NCBI RefSeq assembly: GCF_014644295.1
Contig: NZ_BMKK01000005.1
Coordinates: 186,001-250,000 of the forward strand
Direction: 5' to 3'
DNA: 64,000 nt
Origin: Emticicia aquatilis
GTDB lineage: Bacteria; Bacteroidota; Bacteroidia; Cytophagales; Spirosomataceae
The first letter of the stretch is position 1, and every line of letters starts with the position of its first letter. A model generated the notes under the pieces. That model searched no databases, was not told the DNA's origin, and saw only the letters and a list, made by a program, of their open reading frames with translations. A program made the position numbers and the translations under genes. Shown one piece after another: positions 2,082-31,525 of the stretch.

Positions 2082-2102
2082 AATTTTGTTGTTGATTGTA
2101 TT

Positions 2103-2122
2103 AGACAACGCATGCGTTGTCT
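2103..2122. repeat. Intercistronic palindrome, GTCTCTAC family, copy 1
   Basis: A perfect 20-bp palindrome (arms AGACAACGCA and TGCGTTGTCT) followed by CTAC. It lies between the stop of permease F and the start of permease G. The right arm matches the GTCTCTAC end of the larger copies near 4.5 kb and 12.2 kb, while the left arm is eroded. It has no T-run, so it does not look like a terminator. Confidence 0.75.
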
Positions 2123-4560: not shown

Positions 4561-6954
4561 TTATTCCGTTTTCAATGATTTGACAGGGTTCATTATGGCG
4601 GCTTTGATGGCTTGGAAACTAACAGTTAGTAAAGTAATTGCCAAAGCCCCAATACCCGTTAGAGCAAAAATCCACCACGAAATATCAGTTCGGAAAGTAT
4701 ATTTTTGCATCCACTGGCTCATGAAAAAGTAAGCCATTGGCGAAGCAATAAAGAATGAGATGATAACCAAAACCACAAAGTCTTTTGATAATAAAGCCCA
4801 AATATTGGTGACGGTAGCCCCCAAAACCTTACGAACACCAATTTCTTTGGTACGTTGTTCGGCCACAAACGATGCCAAACCAAAAAGACCCAAGCAGCTA
4901 ATAAAAATGGCCAAGATTGCAAAAAACGTAGCCAGTTTGCCTACTCTCTCTTCGTTGCCAAATTTTCTGCCATATTCTTCATTAACGAATTTGTATTCAA
5001 AAGGCTGGGCTGGATTATATTTTTTCAATACTTCTTCTATCTGGCTCAGCGATTCGCTGGCATTTTTGTTTGGATTAAGCTTAATGATTAACACATTTTC
5101 TTCTTCTCGAGATAAATGAAAAAGCGATGCACGAGATGGCTCATAAGGCGATTGAACAATCATGTTTTTTACAACTCCAATGACTTTATAAGACTTTCCA
5201 TCCCATTTGATGATTTCATCGATGGCAGCCATCGGATTTTTATAGCCAATGTATTTTGCAGCCGCTTCATTCAGTACAAACGCTAACGAATCTGATGTGT
5301 ATTGTCGAGAAAAATCTCGGCCAGCCACAAATTGCCAACCAATCGTTTTTCCATATTCGTGCGAAACTGGGTTGTTAGGAAAATCAACAGCTAAATTGGG
5401 GTCTTTTCCTTTCCAATCGAAACCACCATTGCTATTCCAGTGTTCGGTAAGTGGACTTCCAGATTCGGCTATATCGACCACTGCTCCCGACTTCCTTAAT
5501 TCATCTCTCACTACATCAAAGTGTTTATGAATATCTGATGTTTGCATATAAATATTGATTAACCCATCTTTCGTATAGCCCAAAGGGCGGCTTTTTGCAA
5601 ATTCAATTTGTCGAAAAACTACGATTGTGCCTATAATTAATGTAACCGAAACCGTAAACTGAATAACAACCAATATCTTACGTGGGACAGACGCAAAACG
5701 CCCTACTCGAAAAGTACCTTTTAGCACTTTGACTGGCTGAAAAGATGATAAATAAAGTGCTGGATAGCTACCCGCAATCAATCCTGTGAGCAAACTAAAT
5801 GCAACACCGAGTATCCAAAAGACTGGGTTCATCCATAAAACACTCATTTTTTTATCGGCCAAGTCATTGAAGAGGGGTAAAATTAATAGCACTAAAATAA
5901 TCGAAAGTACAAATGCTAAACTAACCACCAATAATGACTCGCTGAAAAATTGACTAATAAGTTGGCCACGTACCGAACCGATTGCCTTACGAATACCTAC
6001 TTCTTTAGCACGTTTTTCGCTACGTGCAGTACTCAAATTCATGAAATTGATACAAGCCAAAAGCAATACAAAAACCCCAATAATGCCAAAAAGCCACACA
6101 AATTCAATACGGCCACCTACGTTAATACCATTTTTAAATTCACCGTATAGATGCCAATCTGACATCGGATGCAAGAAAACTTCGGGTTTATACCTTGCTT
6201 CCTCTTTGTCAAGTCTGTTTAATTTAACGTTCTTTATTTTAGCCGAAACTTTTTTCATATCGGCGTTTTCGGCAATTTGAGCAAATGTCTGAGTAAAGTT
6301 ACTGCCCCACGGGTTTTCCATTTTTTTTATCCAATCATTGGTAATCAGATATAATTCCCAAGGCATGAGATACGAAACATCTTTTAAGGTCGAGTTATGC
6401 GGTAAATCTTCATAAACACCCGTTACTTTTACATCAGTTTTATTATCAATTTTCATTATTTTATCCATAGGGTCGGCATCGCCAAAATAGGCTTTGGCCA
6501 CCGACTCCGACAGTAAAATAGAATATGGTTCTTTCAGTCCATCACGAGTACCTTTGAGCATTTTCAATGAAAGCATTTCAGTTACTTGTGGCTCAAAGTA
6601 GCTTCCACTCTTAGTAAACTTTTTCTCGCCAGCGGTCAGAATATGGCTCGAATTCCACGAAGATTGTAATACATATTTGAAATCACTACCATAATTATTC
6701 CTGATTTCTTCGGCCATCACTGCGGGGTTCGACATCTGAGTCTCTCTCTTACCGTTATACAAATTATGCTGCATTACTTGAGCAATACGGTCATAATTTT
6801 CGTGGTTTTTATCGAAAGTAAGTTCATCATAAATCCACAGACCTATGAGCATGGCCACCGCCATCCCAGTGGCTAAACCAAAAATGTTAATAAACGAGTA
6901 AACCTTGTTTTTGACAAGGTTACGGAGGGCGACTTTGAAATAATTTTTTATCAT
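4561..6954 (-). CDS. FtsX/MacB-type ABC transporter permease E
   Basis: A 797-residue permease with the same two-module plan: first helix at about 22-42, periplasmic domain to about 285, a three-helix block with SEKRAKEVGIRKAIGS near 312, then a second periplasmic domain and a C-terminal three-helix block with EQRTKEIGVRKVLGAT. It is most like F, B and C, sharing the opening NKVYSFINIFGLATGMAVAM. No Walker motifs are present. A five-codon leader frame (ATG AAA AAA CTA TGA) ends in an ATGA overlap with the start codon, so translation may be coupled to it. The gene probably belongs to the same transcript as the other permeases. Substrate unknown; a role in export or in transmitting ATPase movement to the periplasm is inferred from MacB. 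Confidence 0.92.
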   Translation of the reverse strand: MIKNYFKVALRNLVKNKVYSFINIFGLATGMAVAMLIGLWIYDELTFDKNHENYDRIAQVMQHNLYNGKRETQMSNPAVMAEEIRNNYGSDFKYVLQSSWNSSHILTAGEKKFTKSGSYFEPQVTEMLSLKMLKGTRDGLKEPYSILLSESVAKAYFGDADPMDKIMKIDNKTDVKVTGVYEDLPHNSTLKDVSYLMPWELYLITNDWIKKMENPWGSNFTQTFAQIAENADMKKVSAKIKNVKLNRLDKEEARYKPEVFLHPMSDWHLYGEFKNGINVGGRIEFVWLFGIIGVFVLLLACINFMNLSTARSEKRAKEVGIRKAIGSVRGQLISQFFSESLLVVSLAFVLSIILVLLILPLFNDLADKKMSVLWMNPVFWILGVAFSLLTGLIAGSYPALYLSSFQPVKVLKGTFRVGRFASVPRKILVVIQFTVSVTLIIGTIVVFRQIEFAKSRPLGYTKDGLINIYMQTSDIHKHFDVVRDELRKSGAVVDIAESGSPLTEHWNSNGGFDWKGKDPNLAVDFPNNPVSHEYGKTIGWQFVAGRDFSRQYTSDSLAFVLNEAAAKYIGYKNPMAAIDEIIKWDGKSYKVIGVVKNMIVQSPYEPSRASLFHLSREEENVLIIKLNPNKNASESLSQIEEVLKKYNPAQPFEYKFVNEEYGRKFGNEERVGKLATFFAILAIFISCLGLFGLASFVAEQRTKEIGVRKVLGATVTNIWALLSKDFVVLVIISFFIASPMAYFFMSQWMQKYTFRTDISWWIFALTGIGALAITLLTVSFQAIKAAIMNPVKSLKTE

Positions 6955-7051: not shown

Positions 7052-9481
7052 TTACTCCGTTTTCAGGCTCTTTACGGGGTTCATCAAGGCAGTTTTGATT
7101 GCTTGATAACTAACCGTCAGCAAAGCCACCAAGATTGCCGAAATACCCGCCAATGCAAATATCCACCACGAGATTTCGACTTTATATTCAAAATCTTGCA
7201 ACCATTTCTCCATCAAATAATAAGCAATCGGACTGGCGATGATGATGGCAGTCAGCACGAGTTTTAAGAAATCTTGGCTCAATAATGCGGTAATACTAAA
7301 GGTACTGGCTCCTAAAACTTTACGAATAGCAATTTCTTTTGTACGGCTTTCGGCAGTGAAAGTTGCCAAACCGAAAAGCCCCAAACACGCAATAATTATC
7401 GCCCAAACCGAGGCCGTAGTAAAAATTTGACTGTATTGCTGCTCTGATTGATACTGTTTATTGAAATTATCATCTACAAAAAAGTATTCGTAAGGATTTC
7501 CCGTAAAATAGGTTTTATAGATTTTCTCAAGATTAGCCACTTTCTCTTGAATATTCTCGGGCGTGAGTCTTACTGTTATATAAGCAGAATTATTTTGAGG
7601 ATAAAAAATAATGGGTTGAATAGCTTGTTTTACGCCCACATGATGATAGTTTTTTACAACTCCGATAATTTCGAGTTGGCGTTCGTCCCACTGGATTCGA
7701 GTACGAATCGCTTCTTCAGGGGTAGCAAAGCCCAATGCCGCAATGGCAGTTTCGTTGAGCAGCACTTTGCTATTATCATTCCACTCTACATTACATTCGG
7801 CTTCGGTGAAATTTCGGCCTGCTTTTAATTCAATCCCGTAAGTTTTCAAATACTTTTCTCCAATAATTGCAAATGAATACGTTTTTTGTTCGTCGCCAGG
7901 TTTTGAATTTGGTTGAGTAAAACCTCCTGTCATGAAATTAAACCAACGACTCGGCACCGACCCCGAAACACAATAGTCTTGCACAAAACTCTGCTGATTT
8001 ACGGCATTCATAAAAGCCATTTTTCGAGTTTTAAACGTACTGTCTTTGCCTACTTCTGCCCCTTGAATCACCAAAAGTTGGCTCGGATTTAAGCCTAAAT
8101 CTTTAGTTTGCATGAAGCGTAATTGTCTGTAAATCAAGACCGTACCCAAAATCAACATAATTGAAATTGTGAACTGCGATACAACTAATGATTTACGTAA
8201 GAAAACTCCTTTCGAGCGTTTATTGAATTTTCCTTTAAGGGTTTCGATTGGGTTGAAATTCGATAAAATATAGGCAGTTAAAGCTCCCGAAAATACCGAC
8301 CCAAAAAGCAGCAAAACCACTCCTACTAACCAAACTGGTGAAAGACTGATATTCGTAAAAGATAAGTTTTTACCGATTAACTCATTGAACACAGGTTGAA
8401 GCCCCACAACCAAAACAATGGCAAGAGCAAAACCAAGCAAATTAACGAGCATCGACTCGCCCAAAAACTGCCAAATCAAGTTCGATTGTGTAGCCCCAAT
8501 GGCTTTTCTTACGCCTACTTCATTGGCTCGTTTCAACGAATTGGCCGTTGAAAGATTGATATAATTAAACCACGCAATAATCAAAATCAAAAAGGCAATT
8601 CCGCCCAGCATATACACATATTTCAGATTACTTGTGGTTTGTAAATCATCGGCGAAGGATTCGCCCAAATGAAGGTTAGCAAAGGCTTGTAATCGAAACT
8701 TCGTTCCGTCATTTTCTCTACCCAACTTATTTCTGAGTTGAGTAAGTTTTGTTTCAAAGGCTTTTGGGTTTACATCATTATTGAGGAGAAAGAAAGTATT
8801 GATATACTGCGAGTCGAGGTTATCGAGCCTTGCCCAGCCATTACCATTTAAGTTTGCAGGATTTTTGAGGGTTTCGAGCGAAAACACCATATCATACCTG
8901 ATGTCCGAATTTTCGAGCATATCGGCATAAATACCTTCGACGGTATAAGCGGCGTTCCCAAACTGGTTATCGAGCGTAAGTACTTGACCTATAGGATTTT
9001 CTGAGCCAAAATATTTTTTAACCGAAGACTCCGACAAAAAAACTACGTTTGGTTTTTGTAATGATTTCGCACTACCTGCAACTAAAGGAAAACTAAAAAA
9101 ATCAAAGAAATTTGCTTCGGCAAAGCCAATACCTGACTCACGGAAAGGTTCGCTTCCTTGTTTAGTACGTTTTACAACTCCTTTAGTTACGCCTTGCTCG
9201 AAACGGCAAAAATCTTTGATTTCGGGAAAAGCTTCTTTGGCTTTCATGGCCCACCCCGGCTCAATATCTGGCCAAGTTTCGCCTTTCGGGTTTTGATTCA
9301 AAAGTCGATACATATTTGGCAAATTGGCGTGAAAGCCATTGACACTCTGCTCAAGGCTAATGTATTCGAGAATGAATAAAAAAGCCGAAATACCCATAGC
9401 CAAACCAACAATATTGATAAAGCTATAGACCTTGTTACGAACAAGATTCCGAAATGCGATTTTTAGGTAGTTGCTTATCAT
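7052..9481 (-). CDS. FtsX/MacB-type ABC transporter permease D (divergent member)
   Basis: An 809-residue permease and one of the more divergent members. It opens MISNYLKIAFRNLVRNKVYS, and the coupling motifs read SLKRANEVGVRKAIGA and ESRTKEIAIRKVLGA instead of the EKRAKEVGIRKA and EQRTKEIGVRKVLG of its neighbours. The two-module, eight-helix layout and the terminal NPVKSLKTE are kept. Its first periplasmic domain differs strongly from those of E and F, which suggests a different partner or ligand. The initiation context is CATATAAAATC rather than ACAAAATT. It follows the 97-residue gene with 24 bp between. ATPase motifs are absent. Substrate unknown. Confidence 0.92.
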   Translation of the reverse strand: MISNYLKIAFRNLVRNKVYSFINIVGLAMGISAFLFILEYISLEQSVNGFHANLPNMYRLLNQNPKGETWPDIEPGWAMKAKEAFPEIKDFCRFEQGVTKGVVKRTKQGSEPFRESGIGFAEANFFDFFSFPLVAGSAKSLQKPNVVFLSESSVKKYFGSENPIGQVLTLDNQFGNAAYTVEGIYADMLENSDIRYDMVFSLETLKNPANLNGNGWARLDNLDSQYINTFFLLNNDVNPKAFETKLTQLRNKLGRENDGTKFRLQAFANLHLGESFADDLQTTSNLKYVYMLGGIAFLILIIAWFNYINLSTANSLKRANEVGVRKAIGATQSNLIWQFLGESMLVNLLGFALAIVLVVGLQPVFNELIGKNLSFTNISLSPVWLVGVVLLLFGSVFSGALTAYILSNFNPIETLKGKFNKRSKGVFLRKSLVVSQFTISIMLILGTVLIYRQLRFMQTKDLGLNPSQLLVIQGAEVGKDSTFKTRKMAFMNAVNQQSFVQDYCVSGSVPSRWFNFMTGGFTQPNSKPGDEQKTYSFAIIGEKYLKTYGIELKAGRNFTEAECNVEWNDNSKVLLNETAIAALGFATPEEAIRTRIQWDERQLEIIGVVKNYHHVGVKQAIQPIIFYPQNNSAYITVRLTPENIQEKVANLEKIYKTYFTGNPYEYFFVDDNFNKQYQSEQQYSQIFTTASVWAIIIACLGLFGLATFTAESRTKEIAIRKVLGASTFSITALLSQDFLKLVLTAIIIASPIAYYLMEKWLQDFEYKVEISWWIFALAGISAILVALLTVSYQAIKTALMNPVKSLKTE

Positions 9482-9505: not shown

Positions 9506-9799
9506 CTAAGCAAACTGCATCATTTCTTTTTGTTTTACCCAATCGTCTTTTTTTACGAATGTGATTGGCACAAAGGTTTCGGTTGGCGAACCGATATAAT
9601 AGAGTGTCCAGTCTTGGTCGTAATTCGAAAGCATCTGACGGATACATTCGGCACGGTCAATGGTCGGAACCTCGCAATCAGCCCAATAAAAAAGCTCAAC
9701 TTTATAATGTAGCTGTTGGCGTTCGCCATTAATAGTTACTTCGATTTCTACTTCTTGTTTGCCACTTCCCAAAGGCAATGGAATTGCGATATGTGCCAT
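9506..9799 (-). CDS. Hypothetical 97-residue protein inside the permease array
   Basis: I do not recognise this family. The 97-residue product has no signal peptide or membrane segment, so it is probably cytoplasmic. The first half reads like beta strands (IAIPLPLGSGKQEVEIEVTI), followed by a Trp/Tyr-rich middle (FYWADCE, DWTLYYIGS) and a charged C-terminus. It lies between permeases C and D with gaps of 31 and 24 bp on the same strand, so it is very likely co-transcribed with them. It could be a small accessory or regulatory subunit of the transporter, but nothing in the sequence shows this. The frame is intact and unrelated to the permeases, so it is not a permease fragment. Confidence 0.75.
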   Translation of the reverse strand: MAHIAIPLPLGSGKQEVEIEVTINGERQQLHYKVELFYWADCEVPTIDRAECIRQMLSNYDQDWTLYYIGSPTETFVPITFVKKDDWVKQKEMMQFA

Positions 9800-9830: not shown

Positions 9831-12221
9831 TTACTCTGTTTTCAATGATTTCACAGGATTTACGGTAGCTGCTTTGATAGCTTGATAACTGACCGTCAGT
9901 AAGGTGATTATGACAGCCAAAAACACAACTACTATGAAAATGCTAAAATTGATACTGATTTTATAATCGTATTGCTTTAGCCAATCGTTCATAAAATAAT
10001 AGGCAATCGGAATGGCTATGGCACAAGAAATTAAGACCAAAACCACAAAATCTTTTGAAAGTAACTGCCACAGATTTAGCACACTTGCACCTAAAACTTT
10101 TCTTACACCGATTTCTTTGGTACGTTGTTCGGCCATAAACGATGCCAAGCCAAAAAGCCCAAGACACGAGATAAAAATGGCCAAAACTGCAATAATTGCC
10201 GCCAAATTGCCTACCAATTCTTCGTAATTAAACTTTTTAGAGTATTCGTCGTCGGCAAATTTGTATTCAAACGGAAACCCAGGATTGTATTTATCGAAAA
10301 TTGGTTTCATTTTACTGATTGCCTCCGAAGCCGAAACACTCGGGTTGATACGAACGCACAGATATGATACCCACCCTTTCTGAAAAATGATTGTCAGTGG
10401 AGAAATTTGGCGAAACGGCGACTCCATTTGCATATCTGGCACTACACCAACTACTCTTCTTATTCCGCCATTCCATTTCAAAATTTCGCCTACTGGATTT
10501 TTCAAACCCATACGTTTTACGGCAGCTTCGTTTAAAATTACTCCTATTGAGTCTGTCGAAAATTCTCTTGAAAAATCTCTACCTTCTTTAAGTTTAATAC
10601 CCATCGTTTTGATGTAGTCGTACTCGGTAGCTATCGTTGAAAAAATAACTCCTTCATCGTTGGGTTGGCTATTTTTCCACGCCCAGCCCCTGTTGTTCGA
10701 CCAGATTTGGGTTGGTGGCGAATTGGTTTTCGCAACCGAACTAACCATGCCCGAACTCAGCAGTTCGTGTTGTAGAGCATCAAAGTTTTTGTCAATATCA
10801 TTTGTCCATTCAACCGAAATGAGTCCTTTCTGATTAAAGCCTATTGGTCGATTTTTGCCGTGCTGAATTTGTTGGTAGATAATAACTGTACCTATCATCA
10901 AAATTACCGAACAAGAAAACTGCATCACTACCAATATTTTGCGTGGTAATGAGCTACTTTTTCCTACTCGAATGTTACCTTTGAGTATCTTTACAGGATT
11001 GAAAGAAGACAAATAAAAAGCAGGATAACTACCTGACAACAAGCCTGTTATGAGAGTAAAAACTACTAATATGCTCCAAAACATTGGATTGCTTAGTTGT
11101 AAACTCATTTCTTTTTCGGTCAGCTTATTGAAGAAAGACAACGAAATAGCAACCATAATTAAGGCCAAAACAAAAGCCAAAACAGTAGTTAGTAGCGACT
11201 CGCTCAGAAACTGCCCAATGAGTTGCTCTCTACCCGAACCAACTGCCTTACGAACACCTATTTCTTTGGCTCTTTTTTCAGACCTTGCCGTACTCAGGTT
11301 CATGAAATTAATACAGGCTATCAGCAAAACAATAAAGCCCAAAATACCGAACATTCGTACATATTTGATGTAGCCACCAGTATTTACACCATTCTCAAAA
11401 TCGCCATATAATCGCCATTTCGACATAGGATGAATAAGCAATTCTGGCTTTACTACATTGAGCATCAACTGATTATCTGAGAAGTGTTCTCTTACTACGT
11501 TTTTAATTTTTGCATTGATGCTTTCAGGGTTTGCCTTTTCGTTTAGCTGCACATAGACCTGCCAAGAGTTATTTCCCCAATTGGTTTTATGGTATTTTTT
11601 GATGTAATCGAACAAACTCTCTTGAAGATGAAAGGGTATCAAATAATCGAACGTAAGCGTACTATTTTTGGGTTGTTTAGCAACCACCGCCGTAACCTTC
11701 AAATTATGCTCATTATCCATTTTTATGATTTTCCCGATTGGGTTTTCGTTGCCAAAAAAAGACTTGGCTGTTTCGTCAGTCAGCACAATTGAGTATGGCT
11801 CATGCAACGGATTTTTATCGCCATTTAAAACCTCCAACGAAAACATATCAATGGCTTCTTCGCCGATATAATGCCCAAACTTATTGAATTTCCTATCGCC
11901 ATAAATCAAAGAGTGATTACTGCCCCAGTCGCACATCGCAACGGCCTTAAAATCAGGAAATTTATTCTTCAGTTCTTCTCCAATCGGATAGGGCAAAGCC
12001 AGCTGCGTGCCACGATGCCCATCAAAGGTTTGGTGCATCATTACTCGGTAAAGTGAGTCATAGTTTTTATAGTGCTTGTTGGTCGAGAATTCGTCGTAAA
12101 TCCATAGACCTATGAGCATAGCTACGGCCATTCCTGTAGCCAAGCCTAAAATATTGATAAATGAGTAAACCTTGTTCTTGACAAGATTTCGGAAGGCGAT
12201 TTTTAAGTAATTGCGTATCAT
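9831..12221 (-). CDS. FtsX/MacB-type ABC transporter permease C
   Basis: A 796-residue two-module permease starting at the ATG of MIRNYLKIAFRNLVKNK. A longer in-frame extension of 20 residues exists, but it runs through the intercistronic palindrome, and the internal ATG has the ACAAAATT context and aligns with its paralogues. Coupling motifs are SEKRAKEIGVRKAVGS and EQRTKEIGVRKVLGA. Hydrophobic helices fall at the same places as in F. The chain ends AATVNPVKSLKTE. The first periplasmic domain carries a helix-rich stretch (SLFDYIKKYHKTNWGNNSW) also seen in shifted form in E. No ATP-binding motifs. Expected to share the single ATPase of the cluster; substrate unknown. Confidence 0.92.
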   Translation of the reverse strand: MIRNYLKIAFRNLVKNKVYSFINILGLATGMAVAMLIGLWIYDEFSTNKHYKNYDSLYRVMMHQTFDGHRGTQLALPYPIGEELKNKFPDFKAVAMCDWGSNHSLIYGDRKFNKFGHYIGEEAIDMFSLEVLNGDKNPLHEPYSIVLTDETAKSFFGNENPIGKIIKMDNEHNLKVTAVVAKQPKNSTLTFDYLIPFHLQESLFDYIKKYHKTNWGNNSWQVYVQLNEKANPESINAKIKNVVREHFSDNQLMLNVVKPELLIHPMSKWRLYGDFENGVNTGGYIKYVRMFGILGFIVLLIACINFMNLSTARSEKRAKEIGVRKAVGSGREQLIGQFLSESLLTTVLAFVLALIMVAISLSFFNKLTEKEMSLQLSNPMFWSILVVFTLITGLLSGSYPAFYLSSFNPVKILKGNIRVGKSSSLPRKILVVMQFSCSVILMIGTVIIYQQIQHGKNRPIGFNQKGLISVEWTNDIDKNFDALQHELLSSGMVSSVAKTNSPPTQIWSNNRGWAWKNSQPNDEGVIFSTIATEYDYIKTMGIKLKEGRDFSREFSTDSIGVILNEAAVKRMGLKNPVGEILKWNGGIRRVVGVVPDMQMESPFRQISPLTIIFQKGWVSYLCVRINPSVSASEAISKMKPIFDKYNPGFPFEYKFADDEYSKKFNYEELVGNLAAIIAVLAIFISCLGLFGLASFMAEQRTKEIGVRKVLGASVLNLWQLLSKDFVVLVLISCAIAIPIAYYFMNDWLKQYDYKISINFSIFIVVVFLAVIITLLTVSYQAIKAATVNPVKSLKTE

Positions 12222-12247
12222 AATTTTGTGGGTTTTATATTTCGATT

Positions 12248-12282
12248 GTAGAGACAAGTGACAAGTCATACCTTGTCTCAAC
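12248..12282. repeat. Intercistronic palindrome, GTCTCTAC family, copy 3
   Basis: Inverted arms GTAGAGACAAG and CTTGTCTCAAC (one mismatch) around a 13-bp spacer. It lies between the stop of permease B and the start of permease C. The outer arm is shared with copies 1 and 2 while the inner stem differs. Confidence 0.7.
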
Positions 12283-12288
12283 GTGCGT

Positions 12289-14703
12289 TTATTCCGATTT
12301 CAATGATTTCACTGGGTTCATCATGGCAGCTTTTATAGATTGATAACTTACTGTAAATAAGGTGATTAGCAACGCACTAAGGCCAGAAGCCACAAAAACC
12401 CACCAGCTAATTTCCGTTCTGTACGTATATTTTTGTAGCCAGTTATTCATGAAATAGTATGCGATTGGTGCAGCGATAAGGCAAGAGATTAAGACTAAAA
12501 GCACAAAATCTTTTGAAAGCATTTGCCAAAGGTTAGCAACAGAAGCACCTAACACTTTTCGAATTCCGATTTCTTTGGTGCGTTGCTCTGCCATGAAACT
12601 TGCCAAACCGAAAAGTCCCAAACATGAAATAAAAATGGCCAAAACCGTAAAAACAGTTGCCAACTTTCCAATTCGTTGTTCGGCTTTGAATTTTTGTCCG
12701 TATTCATCGCTTGTAAATTTGACCTGAAACGGAGCAGATGGTACTAATTTTTTCTGAATTGATTCAATTTTTGTCAATGCCTCATTTGCCGATAAGTTTG
12801 GTTTGATTTTTATTAGCATTTGTCCTAAATCATTTGGATTTTTTACATACCAATAAAACCCCATTTTTACAGGCTCAAACGGCGAGTCGGCCACTACGTC
12901 TTCTACCACTCCAATTATTTGTCGGCGTTGTTTGGTGTCATCATTGGTTATATATTCGCCAATCGGATTTTTCAAACCAAGATATTTTGCGGCCGATTCA
13001 TTGATAATTACGGCTGCAGTATCGGTGCTAAAATCAGTCGAATAATCTCGCCCTTGTTTGAGTTTCCATTGAATAGTTTTACCATAATCTTCGTTTATCC
13101 ATGTTACCGAAAAAGATGACTCCGATTCGGGATTTTTCCCTTTCCAAGTAAATCCTCCCCAATTGTCCCAAATTGCGTTTACAGGGCTATTCGAAAAAGC
13201 CACTTTTTCTGCTACCCCGTTTCTAAGAATCTCTTCTTTCATTATCAATTTATTATTATTGAAATTTGGGTCGTCCATCGGAATTCTTATCAAACTCTCT
13301 TTATTATAGCCAATGGGGCGATTTTGAGCATGTTGAATTTGTTGATAAACGATGATTGTACCTATGACCAGAATTATTGAAACTGTGAATTGCACTACCA
13401 CTAATACTTTACGTGGCAACGAAGCATATTTGCCCAGTCGGATTGTGCCTTTAAGCACTTTTATAGGCTCGAATGACGACAAGTAAAATGCGGGATAAAT
13501 ACCTGATAATAAAGAAGTTGTTAGTAAAAAAAACAAACAAATTAACCAAAAATAGAGGTTTGATATTGGCAATTGGATATTCTTATCAGTCAGCTCATTG
13601 AATGGTGCAATAGAAAGCAAAACCAAGATAATTGTAATAATAAAAGCAAAAAAAACAACCAAAAACGACTCACTCAAAAATTGATTAACTAACTGGGATT
13701 TTACGGAGCCAATGGCTTTGCGAATTCCTACTTCTTTGGCTCGTTTTTCGCTACGAGCGGTGCTTAGGTTCATAAAATTGATACACGCCAACAACAATAC
13801 AAATAACCCAACAATAGCAAAAAGCCATACAAAAGTTATACGCCCCCCAGCTGGGTATCCATCTTTGAACTCAGAGTAGAGATACCAGTTTTTCATTGGG
13901 TTTAAATAAAGAATTGCTTGGTATTTTTGGGCAAGTTCTTTAAAATCATCGGGGGCATCTTTGAAATAGAAATCCTTGATAACCGCATTTGCTTGTTCGA
14001 TACTTACGTTATCGTTGGTTTGTACAAAAAGACGTTGTGAACTATTGTGCCAATTGGTTTCATTGGCTTTAATGTCTGGGAATGTTGCCTTGATGTTCTC
14101 AAAATTTCCGATGAATTGTACATCGCCCAGAAAAGAGTTCTTGACAATATCTTCATAGACTCCTGTAATTTTACAGTCTATCTTATTATTTAGCTTAATT
14201 GCTTGACCAATTGGGTCTTTTTCGCCAAAAAGTGCTTTCGAGGTCGATTCCGAAATAACGATTCCTTGTGGGTCGTTTAGGCTTTCTTTGTTACCTTTGA
14301 GCATTTTCACCGAAAACATGTCAAGCACACCATTATCGAAAAACTGCCCATTTTTCACAAAGTTGTTCTCACCAATTTTTATCGAATAATTGCCCGCCCA
14401 TTGCAGCAAGATTACATGTTTGAAAAGATGTCCGTATTTTTGACGCAATACCGTTGCCACTGGTTGTGGCATAGTGGTTGCATAATCAGCTTTTTTTTCT
14501 AATGGCTCAATTACGTGGTTATGTACGTGTCCAATTCGGTCATAGTTTTGGATATTACGGTTATAACTTACTTCGTCATACACCCAAAGCCCAATGAGCA
14601 TCGCCACAGCCATACCTACGGCAAGCCCACCAATATTGATAAATGAGTAAACCTTGTTTTTTTGAAGGTTTCTGAATGCGATTTTTAGGTAATTGCGTAT
14701 CAT
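12289..14703 (-). CDS. FtsX/MacB-type ABC transporter permease B
   Basis: An 804-residue two-module permease, first helix at about 22-42, opening MIRNYLKIAFRNLQKNKVYS. Coupling motifs SEKRAKEVGIRKAIGS and EQRTKEIGIRKVLGA are present and the chain ends NPVKSLKSE. It follows the esterase gene with a 22-bp gap and precedes permease C with only a palindromic repeat between, so co-transcription is likely. The second periplasmic domain (GRDYSTDFSTDTAAVIINES) matches the corresponding stretch in E, F and C, showing that these four are close paralogues. No nucleotide-binding domain. Export or mechanotransmission is inferred from the MacB family; substrate unknown. Confidence 0.92.
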   Translation of the reverse strand: MIRNYLKIAFRNLQKNKVYSFINIGGLAVGMAVAMLIGLWVYDEVSYNRNIQNYDRIGHVHNHVIEPLEKKADYATTMPQPVATVLRQKYGHLFKHVILLQWAGNYSIKIGENNFVKNGQFFDNGVLDMFSVKMLKGNKESLNDPQGIVISESTSKALFGEKDPIGQAIKLNNKIDCKITGVYEDIVKNSFLGDVQFIGNFENIKATFPDIKANETNWHNSSQRLFVQTNDNVSIEQANAVIKDFYFKDAPDDFKELAQKYQAILYLNPMKNWYLYSEFKDGYPAGGRITFVWLFAIVGLFVLLLACINFMNLSTARSEKRAKEVGIRKAIGSVKSQLVNQFLSESFLVVFFAFIITIILVLLSIAPFNELTDKNIQLPISNLYFWLICLFFLLTTSLLSGIYPAFYLSSFEPIKVLKGTIRLGKYASLPRKVLVVVQFTVSIILVIGTIIVYQQIQHAQNRPIGYNKESLIRIPMDDPNFNNNKLIMKEEILRNGVAEKVAFSNSPVNAIWDNWGGFTWKGKNPESESSFSVTWINEDYGKTIQWKLKQGRDYSTDFSTDTAAVIINESAAKYLGLKNPIGEYITNDDTKQRRQIIGVVEDVVADSPFEPVKMGFYWYVKNPNDLGQMLIKIKPNLSANEALTKIESIQKKLVPSAPFQVKFTSDEYGQKFKAEQRIGKLATVFTVLAIFISCLGLFGLASFMAEQRTKEIGIRKVLGASVANLWQMLSKDFVLLVLISCLIAAPIAYYFMNNWLQKYTYRTEISWWVFVASGLSALLITLFTVSYQSIKAAMMNPVKSLKSE

Positions 14704-14725: not shown

Positions 14726-15577
14726 TCAGTTTTTCTTATTTTTATAGTCAGCCAAAATACTTTTGAGACCATAATAAGTACCTGGAAAAACGATTGTTCC
14801 GTGCGTTTCATTGGGTAGTTCTAAATAACTATACTCCAATGATTTAGGCCGTTTTTTATCTAAATAATCAAGTAGCTCGACGTTTGCTGGAAATCTGACA
14901 GGGATTTTTATATCTTTCCGACATTCAAATATTTTACCTTTGAAATCTGGGTTTTTATTCAAAAAGTCAATTAATTCTTTGCCAATTTTGCCTTTATTCC
15001 ACCATGTACTACCATCAATTGAAATGATAGCCTGAAAAAGATTGGGCTTTTTATACAAAGCATAATAGGCCAGCAACCCTCCTGTTGAATGTCCAATGAT
15101 TACTCTATAAGGCTGCGTTCGGTACTTTTTTTCTACGTTTGGAATCAATTCTTTTTCTAAATACTCAAGAAAATTATCAGCTCCGCCCGCAGTTTTCAAG
15201 TCTTGTGCCTGTCCAGAATCTTCATCGACTTTTGGCGAAAAATCTCGGCCTCTATTATTTGTCGTAATGCCTATAATAATACAATTTGGTGCGATTCCGC
15301 TCTGAGCCAACAAACTTGCGGCATCGGTGGTCAACGAAAAATAATATTCACCATCTAAGACATACACAACAGGGTATTTCTCTGAATTTTTATCGTAATC
15401 GTCGGGCAAATAGACAAACGCCTTACTTTTTTCTTTCAATACTTGAGAGTCAATCGTAAAATCAGTCATATTGCCCTTAGTATAGGCAAATTGAGCAAAT
15501 GCCGTATTCAACGAGAGCAATACTACTAAGCTAAATTTAAAAATTAGCTCAAGATTTCTGTTGATTGTTAGTCTCAT
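14726..15577 (-). CDS. Secreted alpha/beta-hydrolase esterase (IroE/esterase D-like)
   Basis: A 283-residue hydrolase of the putative esterase (PF00756) type. The ATG of MRLTINRNLE was chosen because it opens a signal peptide (hydrophobic residues 11-28, then AFAQ) and lies 11 bp after the stop of permease A; a longer frame overlaps permease A. The nucleophile is Ser164 in GHSTGG and the likely catalytic histidine is His259 in NETHG. The stretch IGITTNNRGRDFSP resembles the oxyanion-side region of IroE-type siderophore esterases. It is exported, probably to the periplasm. Its place in the transporter operon suggests that it cleaves an ester related to the transported molecule. The substrate cannot be read from the sequence; a siderophore or ester antibiotic is speculation. 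Confidence 0.85.
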   Translation of the reverse strand: MRLTINRNLELIFKFSLVVLLSLNTAFAQFAYTKGNMTDFTIDSQVLKEKSKAFVYLPDDYDKNSEKYPVVYVLDGEYYFSLTTDAASLLAQSGIAPNCIIIGITTNNRGRDFSPKVDEDSGQAQDLKTAGGADNFLEYLEKELIPNVEKKYRTQPYRVIIGHSTGGLLAYYALYKKPNLFQAIISIDGSTWWNKGKIGKELIDFLNKNPDFKGKIFECRKDIKIPVRFPANVELLDYLDKKRPKSLEYSYLELPNETHGTIVFPGTYYGLKSILADYKNKKN

Positions 15578-15588
15578 AGTATTAGTTT

Positions 15589-18024
15589 TTATTCCGTTTT
15601 CAAACTCTTCACAGGATTCATCAAAGCGGCTTTTATAGCCTGATAACTCACTGTTAGTAAAGCAATTAGTAAGATAACAATGCCTGCTACCACAAAAACC
15701 CACAACGAAATATCGGTTTTAAATGCAAAATCTTTCAGCCAAGTACTCATGGCATAATAGGCCAATGGCGAAGCTATCACAAAGGCAAGGCAAACCAGTT
15801 TTAGGAAGTCTTTTGAAAGCAACTGAACGATGCTCCAAATACTCGCTCCCAGCACTTTTCTGACGCCAATTTCTTTGGTGCGTTGCTCGGCTATGTACGT
15901 GATTAGCCCAAATAAACCCAAGCAAGCTATCAAGACCGTAAGCCCCGCAAAAATCAAAGAAATTTGACCAATTCGTTGTTCGGCTCGGTACATTTCATCG
16001 AACGATTCGTTCATAAAATGATAGTTGAAAGGCATTTCTGGAGCAAAAACCTTCCATTTTGCTTCTATTTGTTTGATAAGCGTTTGTGGCTCTTCGGTAT
16101 TGATTTTGAAGGCCGTTACCCACGCACTTCTGCCATAACGGAAGCACAAAGGCCCAACTGCCTCACGCATAGATGAATAGTGAAAATTCTTGACAAGACC
16201 CACAACCGTCAGAGCTTCAACATCATTCGGATTGCCGTTATTGATGTATAGTTTTTTACCGATTGGGTCATCAAAGCCAATCAGTTTGGCGGCTTGTTCG
16301 TTTAAAATTATGCCCGAAGAATCGGTGCTGAATGCTTTCGAGAAATTTCTACCTTTCAAAATCTCCATATCAAGCGTTGGGATATAATCTTCATCAATTT
16401 CCCATGCTTGCATATTAAAGCTATTTTGGGTATTAAAAACCGCTTCGGTTGAAAAGGTATTATCGCTTCTTGAAGAGTTGGCTACTGGCAAAAATCCCGC
16501 AAAGGTGGCATTTTTTACGCCTGCCATTTTCTTTACTTCTTCTTTGAAAACATTATTGTTATCTCGCAGCGAAGATGTGCCTGTCACGACCAAGATTTGG
16601 TCTTTTGAGAAACCTAAATTTTTGTGTTGAATGTAATTGAGCTGGCGATAAATGATAAAGGTTGAAATAACCAAAACCAATGACGTGACAAACTGAAAAG
16701 TAACTAAAGCATTTCGGAAATTTGAACGTCGGAAATTAGCGTTGAGTTTACTTTTTAAAACCTCAATTGGTCGGAAAGATGACAAGAAAAATGAAGGATA
16801 ATAACCCGCCAAAACACCTACAATTAAAGGCAAAAGCACCAAAAAAGGCAAATATTGCGGCTGAAAAAGCGATTGAGTGGTAAATTGTTTTCCAGCTATT
16901 TCATTAAAGGATGGAATCAATAAAATTGTGATTACCAATGCTATAACGAATGCCAAATAACTCGTAAGCACCGACTCAGACATGAATTGCATGATAAGGC
17001 TATTGCGTTGAGTACCCATTACTTTACGAATACCTACCTCTTTAGCACGATTGGCCGAGCGAGCCGTACTGAGATTCATGAAATTGATGCACGCAATGAG
17101 CAATAGAAACAAGGCAACCACCGAAAAAATATACACATACTGAATATCACTATTGGGGCCGATTTCATAAATTCGGTCAGATTTTAGGTGGATATCCAAC
17201 AACGGTGTGAGCGAGTATTTTAAGTAATTGCCGCCTTTTTTGAAATCATCCATGCTTTTTATATCCATGAAAGCCTTCGCCTGTGGCAAGATATATTTAT
17301 CAACAACTACATCGAATTTCTTCTCAAACTGCTTATAATCAACCCCTTCTCGGAGTTTGATATAGGTATAGAAATTATGACTCAAGAAATTATCGAACTT
17401 ATAATCGTTGATATTCTTGAACGGAAAAAACATATCGGTCTGAAAATGTGCGTTGGTGGGCATATCTTCATAAACCGCCGTAACTTTATATTCGACAGGA
17501 TTTTGCAACCCAACCGTAAGGGTTTTACCCACAGCCGAAGTACTGCCAAAGTATTTTTGTGCAGCCGTTTGACTGATAATAAGGGTATTTGGTTCGGCTA
17601 AAACTTTCTTGGAGTCGCCTTCGAGGATATTCAGCGGAAAAACATCCAAAAGCGTGGAGTCGGCGTGAAGACAGTTATTCTCAATGAGAAACTCGCTACC
17701 TTTTTTGATAAAACGGCGACTATTATTTGCATAAAGGCGAACATACTGCTCGACTTCGGCATAATCTTTTTTGAGTGTAGCACCAAACGGGTCAGAGCTA
17801 ACGGCCATGCGTTGTTCGGCTCCGCCAAACTTAATATCAGAGTTGATACGATAGATTCGTTCGGCATCTTTAAACTGTCGGTCGTAGCTGAGCTCATCAA
17901 CAACATAGAGTGTTATCAATAAAAAACAAGTAAGTCCAATAGCTAAACCAAAAATATTGATGAAGCTATATAGCTTGTTTTTGAGAAGGTTTCTCCAAGC
18001 GATTTTTAAGTAGTTTTGTAGCAT
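15589..18024 (-). CDS. FtsX/MacB-type ABC transporter permease A (divergent, promoter-proximal)
   Basis: An 811-residue two-module permease and the first after the ATPase gene. It opens MLQNYLKIAWRNLLKNKLYS. Coupling motifs are SANRAKEVGIRKVMGTQ and EQRTKEIGVRKVLGA. Its first periplasmic domain (DRQFKDAERIYRINSDIKFG) and the tail KTDISLWVFVVAGIVILLIA set it apart from B, C, E and F, while the NPVKSLKTE end is kept. It has eight predicted helices and no ATP-binding motif. The 107-bp gap to the ATPase gene carries a CCCCTAAAGGGG repeat. As the permease nearest the adaptor and ATPase genes, it may be the ancestral partner of both, with the others added by duplication. Substrate unknown. Confidence 0.92.
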   Translation of the reverse strand: MLQNYLKIAWRNLLKNKLYSFINIFGLAIGLTCFLLITLYVVDELSYDRQFKDAERIYRINSDIKFGGAEQRMAVSSDPFGATLKKDYAEVEQYVRLYANNSRRFIKKGSEFLIENNCLHADSTLLDVFPLNILEGDSKKVLAEPNTLIISQTAAQKYFGSTSAVGKTLTVGLQNPVEYKVTAVYEDMPTNAHFQTDMFFPFKNINDYKFDNFLSHNFYTYIKLREGVDYKQFEKKFDVVVDKYILPQAKAFMDIKSMDDFKKGGNYLKYSLTPLLDIHLKSDRIYEIGPNSDIQYVYIFSVVALFLLLIACINFMNLSTARSANRAKEVGIRKVMGTQRNSLIMQFMSESVLTSYLAFVIALVITILLIPSFNEIAGKQFTTQSLFQPQYLPFLVLLPLIVGVLAGYYPSFFLSSFRPIEVLKSKLNANFRRSNFRNALVTFQFVTSLVLVISTFIIYRQLNYIQHKNLGFSKDQILVVTGTSSLRDNNNVFKEEVKKMAGVKNATFAGFLPVANSSRSDNTFSTEAVFNTQNSFNMQAWEIDEDYIPTLDMEILKGRNFSKAFSTDSSGIILNEQAAKLIGFDDPIGKKLYINNGNPNDVEALTVVGLVKNFHYSSMREAVGPLCFRYGRSAWVTAFKINTEEPQTLIKQIEAKWKVFAPEMPFNYHFMNESFDEMYRAEQRIGQISLIFAGLTVLIACLGLFGLITYIAEQRTKEIGVRKVLGASIWSIVQLLSKDFLKLVCLAFVIASPLAYYAMSTWLKDFAFKTDISLWVFVVAGIVILLIALLTVSYQAIKAALMNPVKSLKTE

Positions 18025-18131: not shown

Positions 18132-18809
18132 TTACACATGGAAATTCTCGGTCACGACCTTTCCATCAAATAAGTTGATAATTCGGTGTGAGAAACCAGC
18201 ATCGTAAGGCGAGTGCGTTACCATCACGATAGTTGTGCCTTCGTTATTGAGTTCTTGTAAAAGTTTCATTACTTCTTCGCCATTTGTCGAGTCGAGATTA
18301 CCTGTTGGCTCATCGGCCAAAATCATTTTTGGCTTAGCTACTACCGCACGAGCAATGGCCACACGCTGCTGCTGTCCACCCGAAAGTTGTTGCGGAAAGT
18401 GATTGCGTCGGTGCATCATATTCATGCGTTCGAGGGCCAATTCTACTTTTTGTTTACGCTCGTCGGCAGGTGTTTTTAAATAAAGCAAAGGCAGCTCAAC
18501 GTTTTCATAAACCGTTAGTTCGTCAATCAGATTGAAGCTTTGAAACACAAATCCGATTGAACCTTTGCGAAGCGAAGCACGCTGACGCTCCGACATCGTG
18601 GCTACTTCGTTGCCGTAGAAATCGTAGCTTCCACCTGATGGATTATCGAGCAAGCCTAAAATATTAAGCAAGGTTGATTTTCCACAGCCAGAAGGCCCCA
18701 TGATGGCTACAAATTCGCCATCTTTGATTTCCATAGTAATGCCATTTAAGGCAGTTGTTTCTACTTCCTCGGTAGTGAAGATTTTCTGAAGGTTGGTTGT
18801 TTTTATCAT
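18132..18809 (-). CDS. ABC transporter ATPase (MacB/LolD type)
   Basis: A 225-residue nucleotide-binding subunit with Walker [10 protein letters not shown] (38-46), Q-loop Gln90, signature [14 protein letters not shown] (from 142), Walker B MILADEP (162-168) and a switch His in VTHSP near 199. The length and the phrase [10 protein letters not shown] are typical of the LolD/MacB/FtsE class that drives FtsX-type permeases. It is the only ATPase in the cluster and lies between the adaptor and seven permeases, so it probably hydrolyses ATP for all of them, two copies per permease. It is cytoplasmic and peripheral to the inner membrane. Short palindromic repeats flank the gene on both sides. Confidence 0.96.
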
Positions 18810-18921: not shown

Positions 18922-20169
18922 CTAAAAGCTTAGAACCTCATTATCCCCAAAATTCTCGTACGAACTTGTGATTACTTGCTCGCCTACTTGTAAGCCTTCT
19001 AAGACCTCGAAATATTCTGGATTTTTACGTCCCAAAGTTATCTTGCGTTTCTGAGCTTTTTTGCCCGATTTATCCACAACATATACCCAATTTCCGCCAG
19101 TATCAGAGAAAAATCCACCTACTGGAATCAGTACTGCTTTTGTTGCTTTGCCCAATTCTAAACGAATCGGTGAAGATTGTCCACGCTTGATGCCTTCGGG
19201 AACTCCTTTAGCAAAAACCATATCTACTTGGAAACGACCATTGCGTACTTCGGGATAAATCTTTGTGATTTCTAAGTCGAAATTTTTACCGTTAAACTCA
19301 AACGAACCACCCAAGCCAGCAAAAATTCTTGAAATATAATGTTCGTCAATATCAACTCGCATCTTAAAACCATTCAAATCATCAATTTGTCCGATGTTTT
19401 GCCCTTGATTGATGTTAGAACCAACCTCTACATCAATGCTCGAAAGTAAACCACCAACTGGGGCTTTTACCACCAAGTTTTCGAGGGTTTCACGCCATAA
19501 TTGCACGTTTTTTTGCGTTCTTTCGAGCGTTCCTTCGAGTTGTTTTATCTGCATTGCCGCATTTTCTTCTTGGTATTTCGACGATTCAAGTGTGATTTCA
19601 CGTTGTTTTACGAGTTTTTCATAATCACGTTTCGACTTCATAAAATCCGACTCGGCAATCACTTTATCGTTATTCAGCTTTTTATTTCTATCGTATAAAT
19701 CTTTGGCTTGGTCAATCTGAAAATCGAGGTCGTTGAGAGTTTGGCGAATCGTAAATTTCTCTACTTTCAAACGTTGACGAGTATTTTGTAGGTCATTCAC
19801 CAATCGGCTCGCTTCGGTTTCTGACTGCAAGAAATTAAGTTTGAGGTTTTGGTTTTCGAGTTTCAAAATTACTTGTCCCTGTTTCACCATATTTCCACCA
19901 TCGACAACTTTTTCTTTCACATATCCACCCACAATGGCATCGAGTCTGATAGTTTTTAAAGGTAAAACTACGCCCGTTACGACGATGAATTCATCAAAAT
20001 CGCCTTGAGTTACGGTCGAAACCGTTAGTTTATCTTTTTCAACATTGAGTTTTGAACGTTTATCAGCAAAGGCAAATTGCCATACCAAAAAAACGGCCAA
20101 TAATGCACCTCCGCCAATCATTGCAATTCGCTGTGTGTTCCAAAACTTTTTCTGTATCTGTCTGTCCAT
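18922..20169 (-). CDS. Efflux periplasmic adaptor (HlyD/MacA-type membrane fusion protein)
   Basis: A 415-residue adaptor with an N-terminal membrane anchor (MIGGGALLAVFLVWQFAFA) followed by a first half-lipoyl segment. A long alpha-helical coiled-coil hairpin comes next, rich in Lys, Glu and Gln (roughly residues 100-215). The second lipoyl half (VKAPVGGLLSSIDVEVGSNI) and a beta-barrel/membrane-proximal part ending near VLEGLQVGEQVITSSYE complete it. Such proteins link an inner-membrane ABC transporter to an outer-membrane channel. No TolC-like gene is visible here. A 21-residue longer frame exists, but the ATG of MDRQIQKKFW is preferred because the candidate sigma-54 promoter would start the transcript near 20207, downstream of the longer start. 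It is the first gene of the cluster. Confidence 0.92.
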   Translation of the reverse strand: MDRQIQKKFWNTQRIAMIGGGALLAVFLVWQFAFADKRSKLNVEKDKLTVSTVTQGDFDEFIVVTGVVLPLKTIRLDAIVGGYVKEKVVDGGNMVKQGQVILKLENQNLKLNFLQSETEASRLVNDLQNTRQRLKVEKFTIRQTLNDLDFQIDQAKDLYDRNKKLNNDKVIAESDFMKSKRDYEKLVKQREITLESSKYQEENAAMQIKQLEGTLERTQKNVQLWRETLENLVVKAPVGGLLSSIDVEVGSNINQGQNIGQIDDLNGFKMRVDIDEHYISRIFAGLGGSFEFNGKNFDLEITKIYPEVRNGRFQVDMVFAKGVPEGIKRGQSSPIRLELGKATKAVLIPVGGFFSDTGGNWVYVVDKSGKKAQKRKITLGRKNPEYFEVLEGLQVGEQVITSSYENFGDNEVLSF

Positions 20170-20216
20170 TGTACTAAATGCTATTGTCTTTTCTAATTCA
20201 TTTTTCTCAAATTTAT

Positions 20217-20232
20217 TCCAAAGCTGTGCCAA
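20217..20232 (-). promoter_or_regulatory. Candidate sigma-54 (-24/-12) promoter of the efflux cluster
   Basis: The minus strand reads TTGGCACAGCTTTGGA. The -24 block matches TTGGCAC fully. The -12 block reads TGGA where TTGC is the consensus, so it is weaker. Transcription would start about 12 bp on, near 20207, about 38 bp before the preferred adaptor start. The divergently encoded NtrC-family activator supports the call. Confidence 0.5.
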
Positions 20233-20284
20233 AAAGGCAATTATCTGATTATCAATAACTTACAAAAACACTAAGATTTTAAAC

Positions 20285-20300
20285 TGTCCGTTTTCGGACA
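20285..20300. promoter_or_regulatory. Candidate activator-binding palindrome, site 1
   Basis: The sequence TGTCCGTTTTCGGACA has perfect 6-bp arms and a 4-bp centre. It lies about 85 bp upstream of the predicted adaptor transcription start, a usual distance for sigma-54 enhancer sites, in the space between the adaptor and the NtrC-type regulator genes. Confidence 0.6.
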
Positions 20301-20305
20301 TTCTT

Positions 20306-20321
20306 TGTACGCTGTCGGACG
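20306..20321. promoter_or_regulatory. Candidate activator-binding palindrome, site 2
   Basis: The sequence TGTACGCTGTCGGACG repeats site 1 with two arm changes (pattern TGTnCG-N4-CGGACr). The two centres are 21 bp apart, about two helical turns, so two regulator dimers could bind the same DNA face. Confidence 0.55.
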
Positions 20322-20469: not shown

Positions 20470-21807
20470 ATGTCGAAACTCCTAATAATTGATGATGATG
20501 TTGATGTGCTAAGTGCCGCTAAATTATTCCTGAAACGCCACTTCACGCAAGTTGATATTGAGAAAAATCCCGAACGCATTCCGTTTTTGATTACAAATGG
20601 GGCCTACGATGTGGTTTTGCTCGATATGAATTTTACTCGTGATGTAAATACGGGCAAAGAAGGTTTCGAGTGGCTCGACCGTATTTTGGACATTGACCCA
20701 CGCATTTCGGTGGTGCTTTTTACGGCTTATGGTGATGTAGAAATGGCTGTGCGAGCCATAAAAATGGGAGCAGTTGATTTTGTGCTAAAGCCCTGGGAAA
20801 ACACCAAGCTACTCGAAACCATGCAGTCGGCCTATGAAATGCGATTGCAGAAAACTGGCAAAAGCGAAGAAAAGAAAAAGCCAAGTAGCAAAGTAGAAAT
20901 CATTGGTAGTAGCCCCGCAATGCTCAAAATTTTTGAAACCATTGAGCGAGTAGCAGCGACTGATGCAAATATTCTGATTTTAGGAGAAAATGGAACTGGT
21001 AAAGATTTGATAGCGAGGTCGTTACACGAAAAATCGAATCGTGCAGAAATGCCATTTGTACATTCAGATTTGGGTGCAATTTCAGAAACTTTGTTTGAAA
21101 GTGAGCTTTTCGGACACGTAAAAGGAGCATTTACCGATGCCCGTGAAGACCGAACAGGCAGATTTGAAGAAGCCAACAGCGGAACGATTTTCTTAGATGA
21201 AATAGGAAATATTCCACTGCCGTTACAAGCCAAACTATTGAATGTTTTACAAAACAGAAGTATAACGAAAGTTGGCTCGAACAAACCAAAAAATATTGAT
21301 ATTCGTTTGATTTGTGCCACCAACGAGCCAATCTACGACCGAGTTGCTCAACGCACTTTCCGTCAAGATTTACTTTATAGAATCAATACCATTGAAATAA
21401 AACTTCCCGCCTTGCGTGAACGCCCCGAAGATATTTTGCCTTTGGCAGAGCATTTTTTGAAGATTTACCGCAAAAAATATAATCGACCTGTTAGTAGTAT
21501 CAGTGCGGCTTTGGGCAAGCAATTACAGCGTTATCATTGGGCAGGAAATGTGCGTGAACTCCAACACGCAGTTGAGCGTGCCGTGATACTTTCGCAAGGA
21601 AATGCCCTACAACCAGAAGATTTTTTCTTCGAGACAAGACAAGAAACAGCACCTTCGTTCGACCAAACTTACCAATTGGAAGAAGTAGAGAAGATGCTGA
21701 TTATCAAGACTCTAAAGAAATTCAACGGCAACATCACCGACGCCGCCCGAGAAATGGGACTCACTCGACAAGCTCTTTATCGGAGAGTGGAGAAGTATGG
21801 GATTTAA
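20470..21807 (+). CDS. Sigma-54-dependent response regulator (NtrC family)
   Basis: A 445-residue regulator with three parts. The receiver (1-120) carries acidic residues 8-10, phospho-acceptor Asp52 in LLDMNF and Lys in LKPWEN; a short insertion TRDVNTGKEG follows the Asp. The AAA+ domain (about 145-385) has Walker A GENGTGKD and FLDEIG as Walker B. The C-terminal Fis-type helix-turn-helix is NITDAAREMGLTRQALYRRV. The sigma-54 contact loop reads GAFTDA rather than GAFTGA. It is encoded divergently from the efflux cluster, with paired palindromes and a sigma-54-like promoter between, so it probably activates that cluster. No histidine kinase gene is adjacent. The stop overlaps that of the convergent ArsC-like gene. 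Confidence 0.95.
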   Translation: MSKLLIIDDDVDVLSAAKLFLKRHFTQVDIEKNPERIPFLITNGAYDVVLLDMNFTRDVNTGKEGFEWLDRILDIDPRISVVLFTAYGDVEMAVRAIKMGAVDFVLKPWENTKLLETMQSAYEMRLQKTGKSEEKKKPSSKVEIIGSSPAMLKIFETIERVAATDANILILGENGTGKDLIARSLHEKSNRAEMPFVHSDLGAISETLFESELFGHVKGAFTDAREDRTGRFEEANSGTIFLDEIGNIPLPLQAKLLNVLQNRSITKVGSNKPKNIDIRLICATNEPIYDRVAQRTFRQDLLYRINTIEIKLPALRERPEDILPLAEHFLKIYRKKYNRPVSSISAALGKQLQRYHWAGNVRELQHAVERAVILSQGNALQPEDFFFETRQETAPSFDQTYQLEEVEKMLIIKTLKKFNGNITDAAREMGLTRQALYRRVEKYGI

Positions 21808-31322: not shown

Positions 31323-31525
31323 AGACAAATATAATTACAGAATACTCAGATTTGACAACTTTCAAAAAGTTGTCAAATCTAAATACTCCTTTCATCAACA
31401 CTAAACGCTTTTTAACATTTTTTATTTGTAATTAATCATTCTAACTATTTTCTTCGTTATATAATGCAGGTTAGTAGTTTTTTACTCCTCGCCTATTATT
31501 TGCACAATTAATCCAACAAAAAATT

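Follow-up and report, generated by a model that had tools for sequence, protein, structure and literature searches.

The region between an HlyD-type adaptor gene and a divergent regulator gene of Emticicia contains two palindromes arranged in tandem, and the question raised by this locus is which protein these sites serve and which genes they control. All features located in the window, i.e., the whole 64-kb stretch of DNA that was analysed, are given in Table 1.

Table 1. Putative regulatory elements and genes of the adaptor–regulator locus, in window coordinates.
Feature	Position	Strand	Basis
Distal activator site (putative), TGTACGCTGTCGGACG	20306..20321	.	sequence; in register beside seven genus orthologues
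Proximal activator site (putative), TGTCCGTTTTCGGACA, TGT-N10-ACA type	20285..20300	.	sequence
Dyad CAA-N4-CTGAT-T-ATCAA-N4-TTA, possible HU/IHF bend site	20238..20262	.	read by eye
-24 element TTGGCAC	20226..20232	-	sequence; about 52–53 bp from proximal site
-12 element TGGAA (consensus TTGCW; no GC)	20216..20220	-	sequence
NtrC-family response regulator, loop GAFTDA instead of GAFTGA	20470..21807	+	
HlyD-type periplasmic adaptor, shorter ATG start	18922..20169	-	domain match; genus orthologues
ABC transporter ATPase	18132..18809	-	domain match
MacB_PCD/FtsX permease	15589..18024	-	
Esterase-like ORF inside permease run, true start uncertain, overlaps permease	14726..15703	-	
MacB_PCD/FtsX permease	12289..14703	-	
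MacB_PCD/FtsX permease	9831..12281	-	
97-aa ORF filling apparent gap in run	9506..9799	-	
MacB_PCD/FtsX permease	7052..9481	-	
MacB_PCD/FtsX permease	4561..6954	-	
MacB_PCD/FtsX permease	2132..4510	-	
MacB_PCD/FtsX permease cut by window end	3..2108	-	

Paired palindromes and the adaptor promoter

Both palindromes claimed in the original prediction were present at the expected positions, with their starts 21 bp apart, upstream of the minus-strand TTGGCAC element that precedes the adaptor gene. The proximal site (TGTCCG-TTTT-CGGACA) is a perfect palindrome of half-sites, and the distal site (TGTACG-CTGT-CGGACG) an imperfect one. No further match to TGTNCGN4CGGACR with at most one mismatch was found in the 64-kb window; as the chance mean was 0.70 and 6 of 100 shuffles reached three matches, the significance of single sites within one window is weak. 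Tandem pairs are less common than single sites and rare in the genome. The exact pattern TGTnCGn4CGnACn6TGTnCGn4CGnAC occurred at two places in 6.75 Mb (the window and contig C18), compared to none for the reversed-pattern control, and with up to three mismatches four places were found, the control giving one forward and two reverse. A chance origin of the sites was ruled out by these genome-wide tandem counts with reversed controls, together with locus shuffles.

The claim of a sigma-54-like promoter held for the -24 element, where GG stands in a TGGCAC context, but not for the -12 block, which reads TTGGCACAGCTTTGGAAT and carries GA where GG-N10-GC has GC. Since validated sigma-54 promoters that deviate from the consensus do exist, as stated in the part of PMC12316311 considered here, the adaptor promoter is described as a variant predicted to work like a sigma-54-dependent promoter and is not filed as a standard member. 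From these elements, a transcription start is predicted near 20205. The proposed distance of 85 bp between sites and -24 element applied to the centre of the distal site only, that of the proximal site being about 63 bp away from TTGGCAC; edge to edge, the proximal site and TTGGCAC are separated by about 52–53 bp. Support was also obtained for the earlier proposal of a shorter adaptor start (ATG at 20169), because the TTG of the longest ORF (20232) falls within the -24 element; in addition, ATGGACA is kept at this start in the seven genus orthologues.

Conservation and geometry of the module

Of 99 places matching the regulator at E values up to 1e-120, 71 were read (the own locus, 7 of the genus and 63 of the family), with a tandem pair accepted at up to three mismatches and a spacing of 20–22 bp. 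Conservation of the sites next to orthologous regulators was confirmed at 50 of the 71 loci, and an adaptor homologue was located within 900 bp in all 50 cases, although for five loci it was no more than a weak match 785–833 bp away. The remaining 21 loci showed neither tandem sites nor an adaptor homologue in the stretch read, and the idea of an obligatory location next to the regulator was dropped.

All 21 of these genomes encode an adaptor homologue further off: 11 at about 2–4 kb, 3 at about 18–70 kb on the same contig, and 7 on another contig. Using criteria that were set after these promoters had been inspected, and in their final form for the shuffles as well, 20 of the 21 passed at least one, namely 17 with a single site plus -24 and 11 with the tandem pair, compared to 1 and 0 of 4200 shuffles, respectively. 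Of the ten adaptors at least 18 kb from the regulator or on another contig, nine were among those that passed. The one promoter failing both criteria (L201) belongs to a group of adaptors (L201–L204) that are 43–45% identical to the query and may not be orthologues. In several separate adaptor promoters the distal site looks decayed to the half-site CGGACA, and in genome G017, where regulator and adaptor are about 70 kb apart, sites were observed at the adaptor only. The sites thus track the adaptor even when the regulator is distant, which indicates that they belong to the transporter promoter and would be usable when the regulator gene lies elsewhere. Of the 96 family genomes in which the regulator was matched (E up to 1e-120), 40 had exact tandem sites, compared to 1 of 24 without such a match; conversely, 40 of the 41 genomes with such sites had a match, the exception at 1e-120 being G094.

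The module was also observed outside the genus. A scan of named genomes yielded 77 loci, of which 7 from Emticicia were left out, and 64 of the other 70, mostly from Chitinophaga and Ferruginibacter, contained it with the -24 element at 52–55 bp from the site (0 of 3500 shuffles). Six loci (L268–L271, L278, L281) lacked the pair or the -24 element. Emticicia belongs to the class Cytophagia and Chitinophaga to Chitinophagia; the palindromes are thus real binding-site-like elements whose distance to a sigma-54-type promoter is kept fixed in both of these Bacteroidota classes. A scan of 247 class genomes with the exact pattern, which is too strict for the Chitinophaga variants, matched the own genome only, this set holding two genomes of the same family, the own one included.

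For the analysis of geometry, a -24 element at 51–56 or 63–67 bp from the site was required and duplicates were removed, leaving 88 distinct promoters, so that the distances are conditional on this filter. Six tandem-site rows without -24 at the expected distance were dropped: L044, L052 and L053 (second site in both), L054 (second register), L067, and L071. The distance was 52–55 bp in 74 promoters, 65 bp in 12, and 63 and 66 bp in one each. The 65-bp class is about one helical turn longer, and all 12 of its members have a site spacing of 20 bp.

Since the search required GG at -24 and favoured TTG at -12, the constancy of these bases is not independent evidence, while their fixed position is. 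TTGC at -12 was found in none of the 88 promoters, TTGG and TTGA prevailing; GC was in register in 7 and shifted one base downstream in 27, and 54, the window promoter among them, had it at neither place. In the 64 loci outside Emticicia, the -12 base was A in 28, G in 20, T in 9, and C in 7. In the own genome, TTGGCAYR-N4-TTG was found 36 times compared to 20 for the reversed pattern, the following base in 30 of the 36 matches being A (13), G (8), T (6), or C (3); these counts are too weak to prove a lineage-wide change of -12. What emerges is an enhancer module of the sigma-54 type that is well conserved and whose -12 element departs from the consensus.

The dyad between the proximal site and -24 fits the IHF consensus WATCAANNNNTTR, when compared by eye, at every position on one strand and at all but one on the other, and two HU/IHF-family genes are present in the own genome. 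Among 50 dereplicated spacers, this consensus was found with at most one mismatch in 22 and 18 on the two strands, compared to about 10% of shuffles, and TGATnATCA at the same stringency in 26, compared to 3.8% of shuffles. In 34 of the 50 spacers, the best TGATnATCA match was located 29–31 bp from the proximal site; with this position fixed, the extra 11 bp of the longer promoters falls between the dyad and -24. In the Chitinophaga/Ferruginibacter set the dyad was not conserved (2 of 64 within one mismatch at offset 31), and the IHF-like element is restricted to the family of the window genome. TTGAT-N-ATCAA was not taken for an FNR/CRP site, since the halves of FNR sites are separated by four bases, a spacing that the dyad does not have.

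Transporter genes and further module copies

The window module had been proposed as the switch for an entire seven-permease cluster, a proposal that had to be corrected. The run continues to the left of the window with three more genes (L148 11778–19121), making ten contiguous MacB/FtsX permeases, and three further module copies were found elsewhere in the genome. The four copies share one layout, as compared by eye. Those at C5:171572 and C5:175476 precede two further MacB/FtsX permeases left of the window, and the one at C18:18476, on another contig, precedes genes for a DUF5916 protein, an ABC ATPase, and an outer-membrane efflux protein (TolC). A single-switch reading was ruled out by these four copies, and the window module is to be regarded as one of several putative switches. 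In genome G004, an ATPase–TolC pair is directly preceded by one copy, and another copy stands before a permease of the cluster in that genome.

With the same module at three other places, one signal would supply the adaptor, ATPases, permeases, and outer-membrane channel together, and one regulator could thus provide a complete tripartite efflux machine. When compared with the darobactin exporter DarBCD at NCBIfam equivalog cut-offs, adaptor (DarC), ATPase (DarD), and permease (DarB) all scored below the cut-off; the exporter was the nearest NCBIfam entry for the adaptor and ATPase, while for the permease the ADOP family outscored DarB, also below its cut-off.

In other genera (L043, L054, L058–L063, L065, L066), the same tandem sites were observed before small ORFs of about 125–148 aa. 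Weak DUF3244 matches were obtained for four of these, two scoring above the cut-off and two below it, and five of the ORFs, when aligned, were 35–43% identical to the first; the small DUF3244-like proteins behind module copies are secreted. Near the regulator, a 1300-aa helicase-like protein (DUF4011/AAA_11/AAA_12) is encoded at window positions 27426–31328.

Regulator, proposed mechanism and alternatives

The divergent gene encodes an NtrC-family regulator, as predicted, with REC, Sigma54_activat (AAA+), and HTH_8 domains. GAFTDA was found in 7 of 7 genus loci, 22 of 23 family loci, 66 of 77 named loci (plus 8 with GSFTDA), and 4 of 4 paralogue loci (44% identity). The five remaining activators encoded in the own genome, in contrast, carry GAFTGA, GSFTGA, or GAFTSA. 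For D. vulgaris, GAFTDA is listed among loop variants expected to stay functional, in the portion of PMC4641369 used here. The genome contains two rpoN genes with Sigma54_DBD (L040, L041), the second of which adjoins another sigma-54 activator gene (L009). A further activator homologue on contig C25 (L010) has a TAA inside the matched stretch and may be a broken gene.

A kinase homologue was present in 64 of the 70 outside loci. The best homologue of the own genome (54%) lies apart from the regulator on another contig (C6:212798; L149 1495–2820), divergent from PadR and PspC-domain genes, neighbours hinting at envelope stress as the signal. Seven loci (L084, L085, L087, L088, L090, L093, L109) carry an additional -24/-12-like element that points towards the regulator gene, at 53 bp from the same palindromes, which suggests self-activation in those genomes.

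The sites, their arrangement, their conservation, and the genes behind them are properties of the sequence itself. It is very probable that the palindromes form the enhancer of the divergent regulator, driving the sigma-54-type adaptor promoter and the three further modules, and the sites most likely mark its regulon. We infer regulator binding, use of sigma-54, bending, and phosphorylation as follows. The kinase homologue at C6:212798 would phosphorylate the regulator, whose dimers would then occupy both sites on one helix face and nucleate a hexamer. In the family of the window genome, an HU/IHF-type bend at the dyad may aid looping. The hexamer would contact sigma-54 RNA polymerase at -24/-12, 53 bp away, and open the adaptor promoter, and the three other modules would place two more permeases and the DUF5916–ATPase–TolC operon under the same control.

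The type of palindrome alone does not identify the protein, and the sites could belong to a different dimeric factor, e.g., a repressor, acting near the regulator by chance, with TTGGCAC being incidental. The 21 of 71 regulator loci without sites alongside and the G094 sites without a regulator match are in line with this, but the link to -24 is fixed (74 of 88 at 52–55 bp and 12 at 65 bp in the distance-filtered set; 64 of 70 outside) and the regulator co-occurs in 40 of 41 genomes with exact tandem sites. An enhancer fits these two observations better, which leaves the different factor quite improbable. A terminator or RNA hairpin is scarcely credible and was rejected. A 6-bp stem could form, and on C18 an ORF terminates about 20 bp from where the pair ends; however, the window palindrome sits between divergent genes, conservation extends to the imperfect second site and to the spacing from -24, and on C18 a full module is directed towards the DUF5916 operon.

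With the enhancer retained as the preferred reading, its middle dyad could still bind a specific regulator other than HU/IHF and act as a second input. This is a tentative possibility, to which the sharper contrast of TGATnATCA (26/50 vs. 3.8%) compared to the IHF consensus points; however, the outer parts of the dyad resemble the IHF consensus too, and its distance from the enhancer stays constant even where -24 shifts by 11 bp, as that of a bend site might. It is also conceivable, but unlikely, that the shift of -12 to TTGG/TTGA and a GAFTDA loop contacting polymerase differently represent a co-adapted activator–promoter pair. Against such coupling, TTGA also occurs in single -24/-12 candidates close to two activators of the own genome that have GAFTGA, so the -12 change may be simply lineage-wide.

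The architecture is known in kind. Like NtrC/NifA-type sigma-54 enhancers, the module combines paired TGT-N10-ACA sites, here predicted to bind dimers, about two helical turns apart, a possible bend element between sites and a -24/-12-like promoter, and an NtrC-family activator; tandem palindromes, IHF-aided looping, and the NifA site TGT-N10-ACA are described for other such activators in the part of PMC6296734 considered. It differs in its target, a MacAB-like multi-permease transporter set in Bacteroidota, in the -12 element, mostly TTGG or TTGA, and in the GAFTDA loop. In NorR, a Gly-to-Asp change in the sigma-54-contact loop (G266D) bypasses repression and gives constitutive activity, as reported in the relevant part of PMC2941729. 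NorR G266D and VfmH share the loop change of the window regulator, judging from the portions of PMC2941729 and PMC10714721 at hand, while GAFTDA is natural here and near-fixed in an orthologue group with a receiver domain. Sigma-54 control of FtsX-like ABC permeases was predicted in 2025, with COG0577 enriched in Bacteroidia among other classes (PMC12316311, in part). That prediction shares the tie between sigma-54 promoters and these permeases; the part considered gives no activator site, enhancer geometry, regulator, or TolC operon, and its consensus is TGGCAC-N5-7-TTGCT, compared to TTGG/TTGA at -12 here. The part of PMC3162934 considered mentions neither Bacteroid- nor macB. Among the literature matches listed, no account of this activator site was found, nor were the regulon and the variant features of the module found described.

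The paired TGTnCG-N4-CGnACA sites, at about 53 bp from TTGGCAY, provide a searchable cis-regulatory code. Through this code, a multi-permease ABC transporter set and a TolC-type partner are linked to an uncharacterised two-component regulator found in Cytophagia and Chitinophagia. Approximately 150 comparable promoters (88 and 64) are thereby available in which the recognition of the -12 element by sigma-54 outside Pseudomonadota can be studied.
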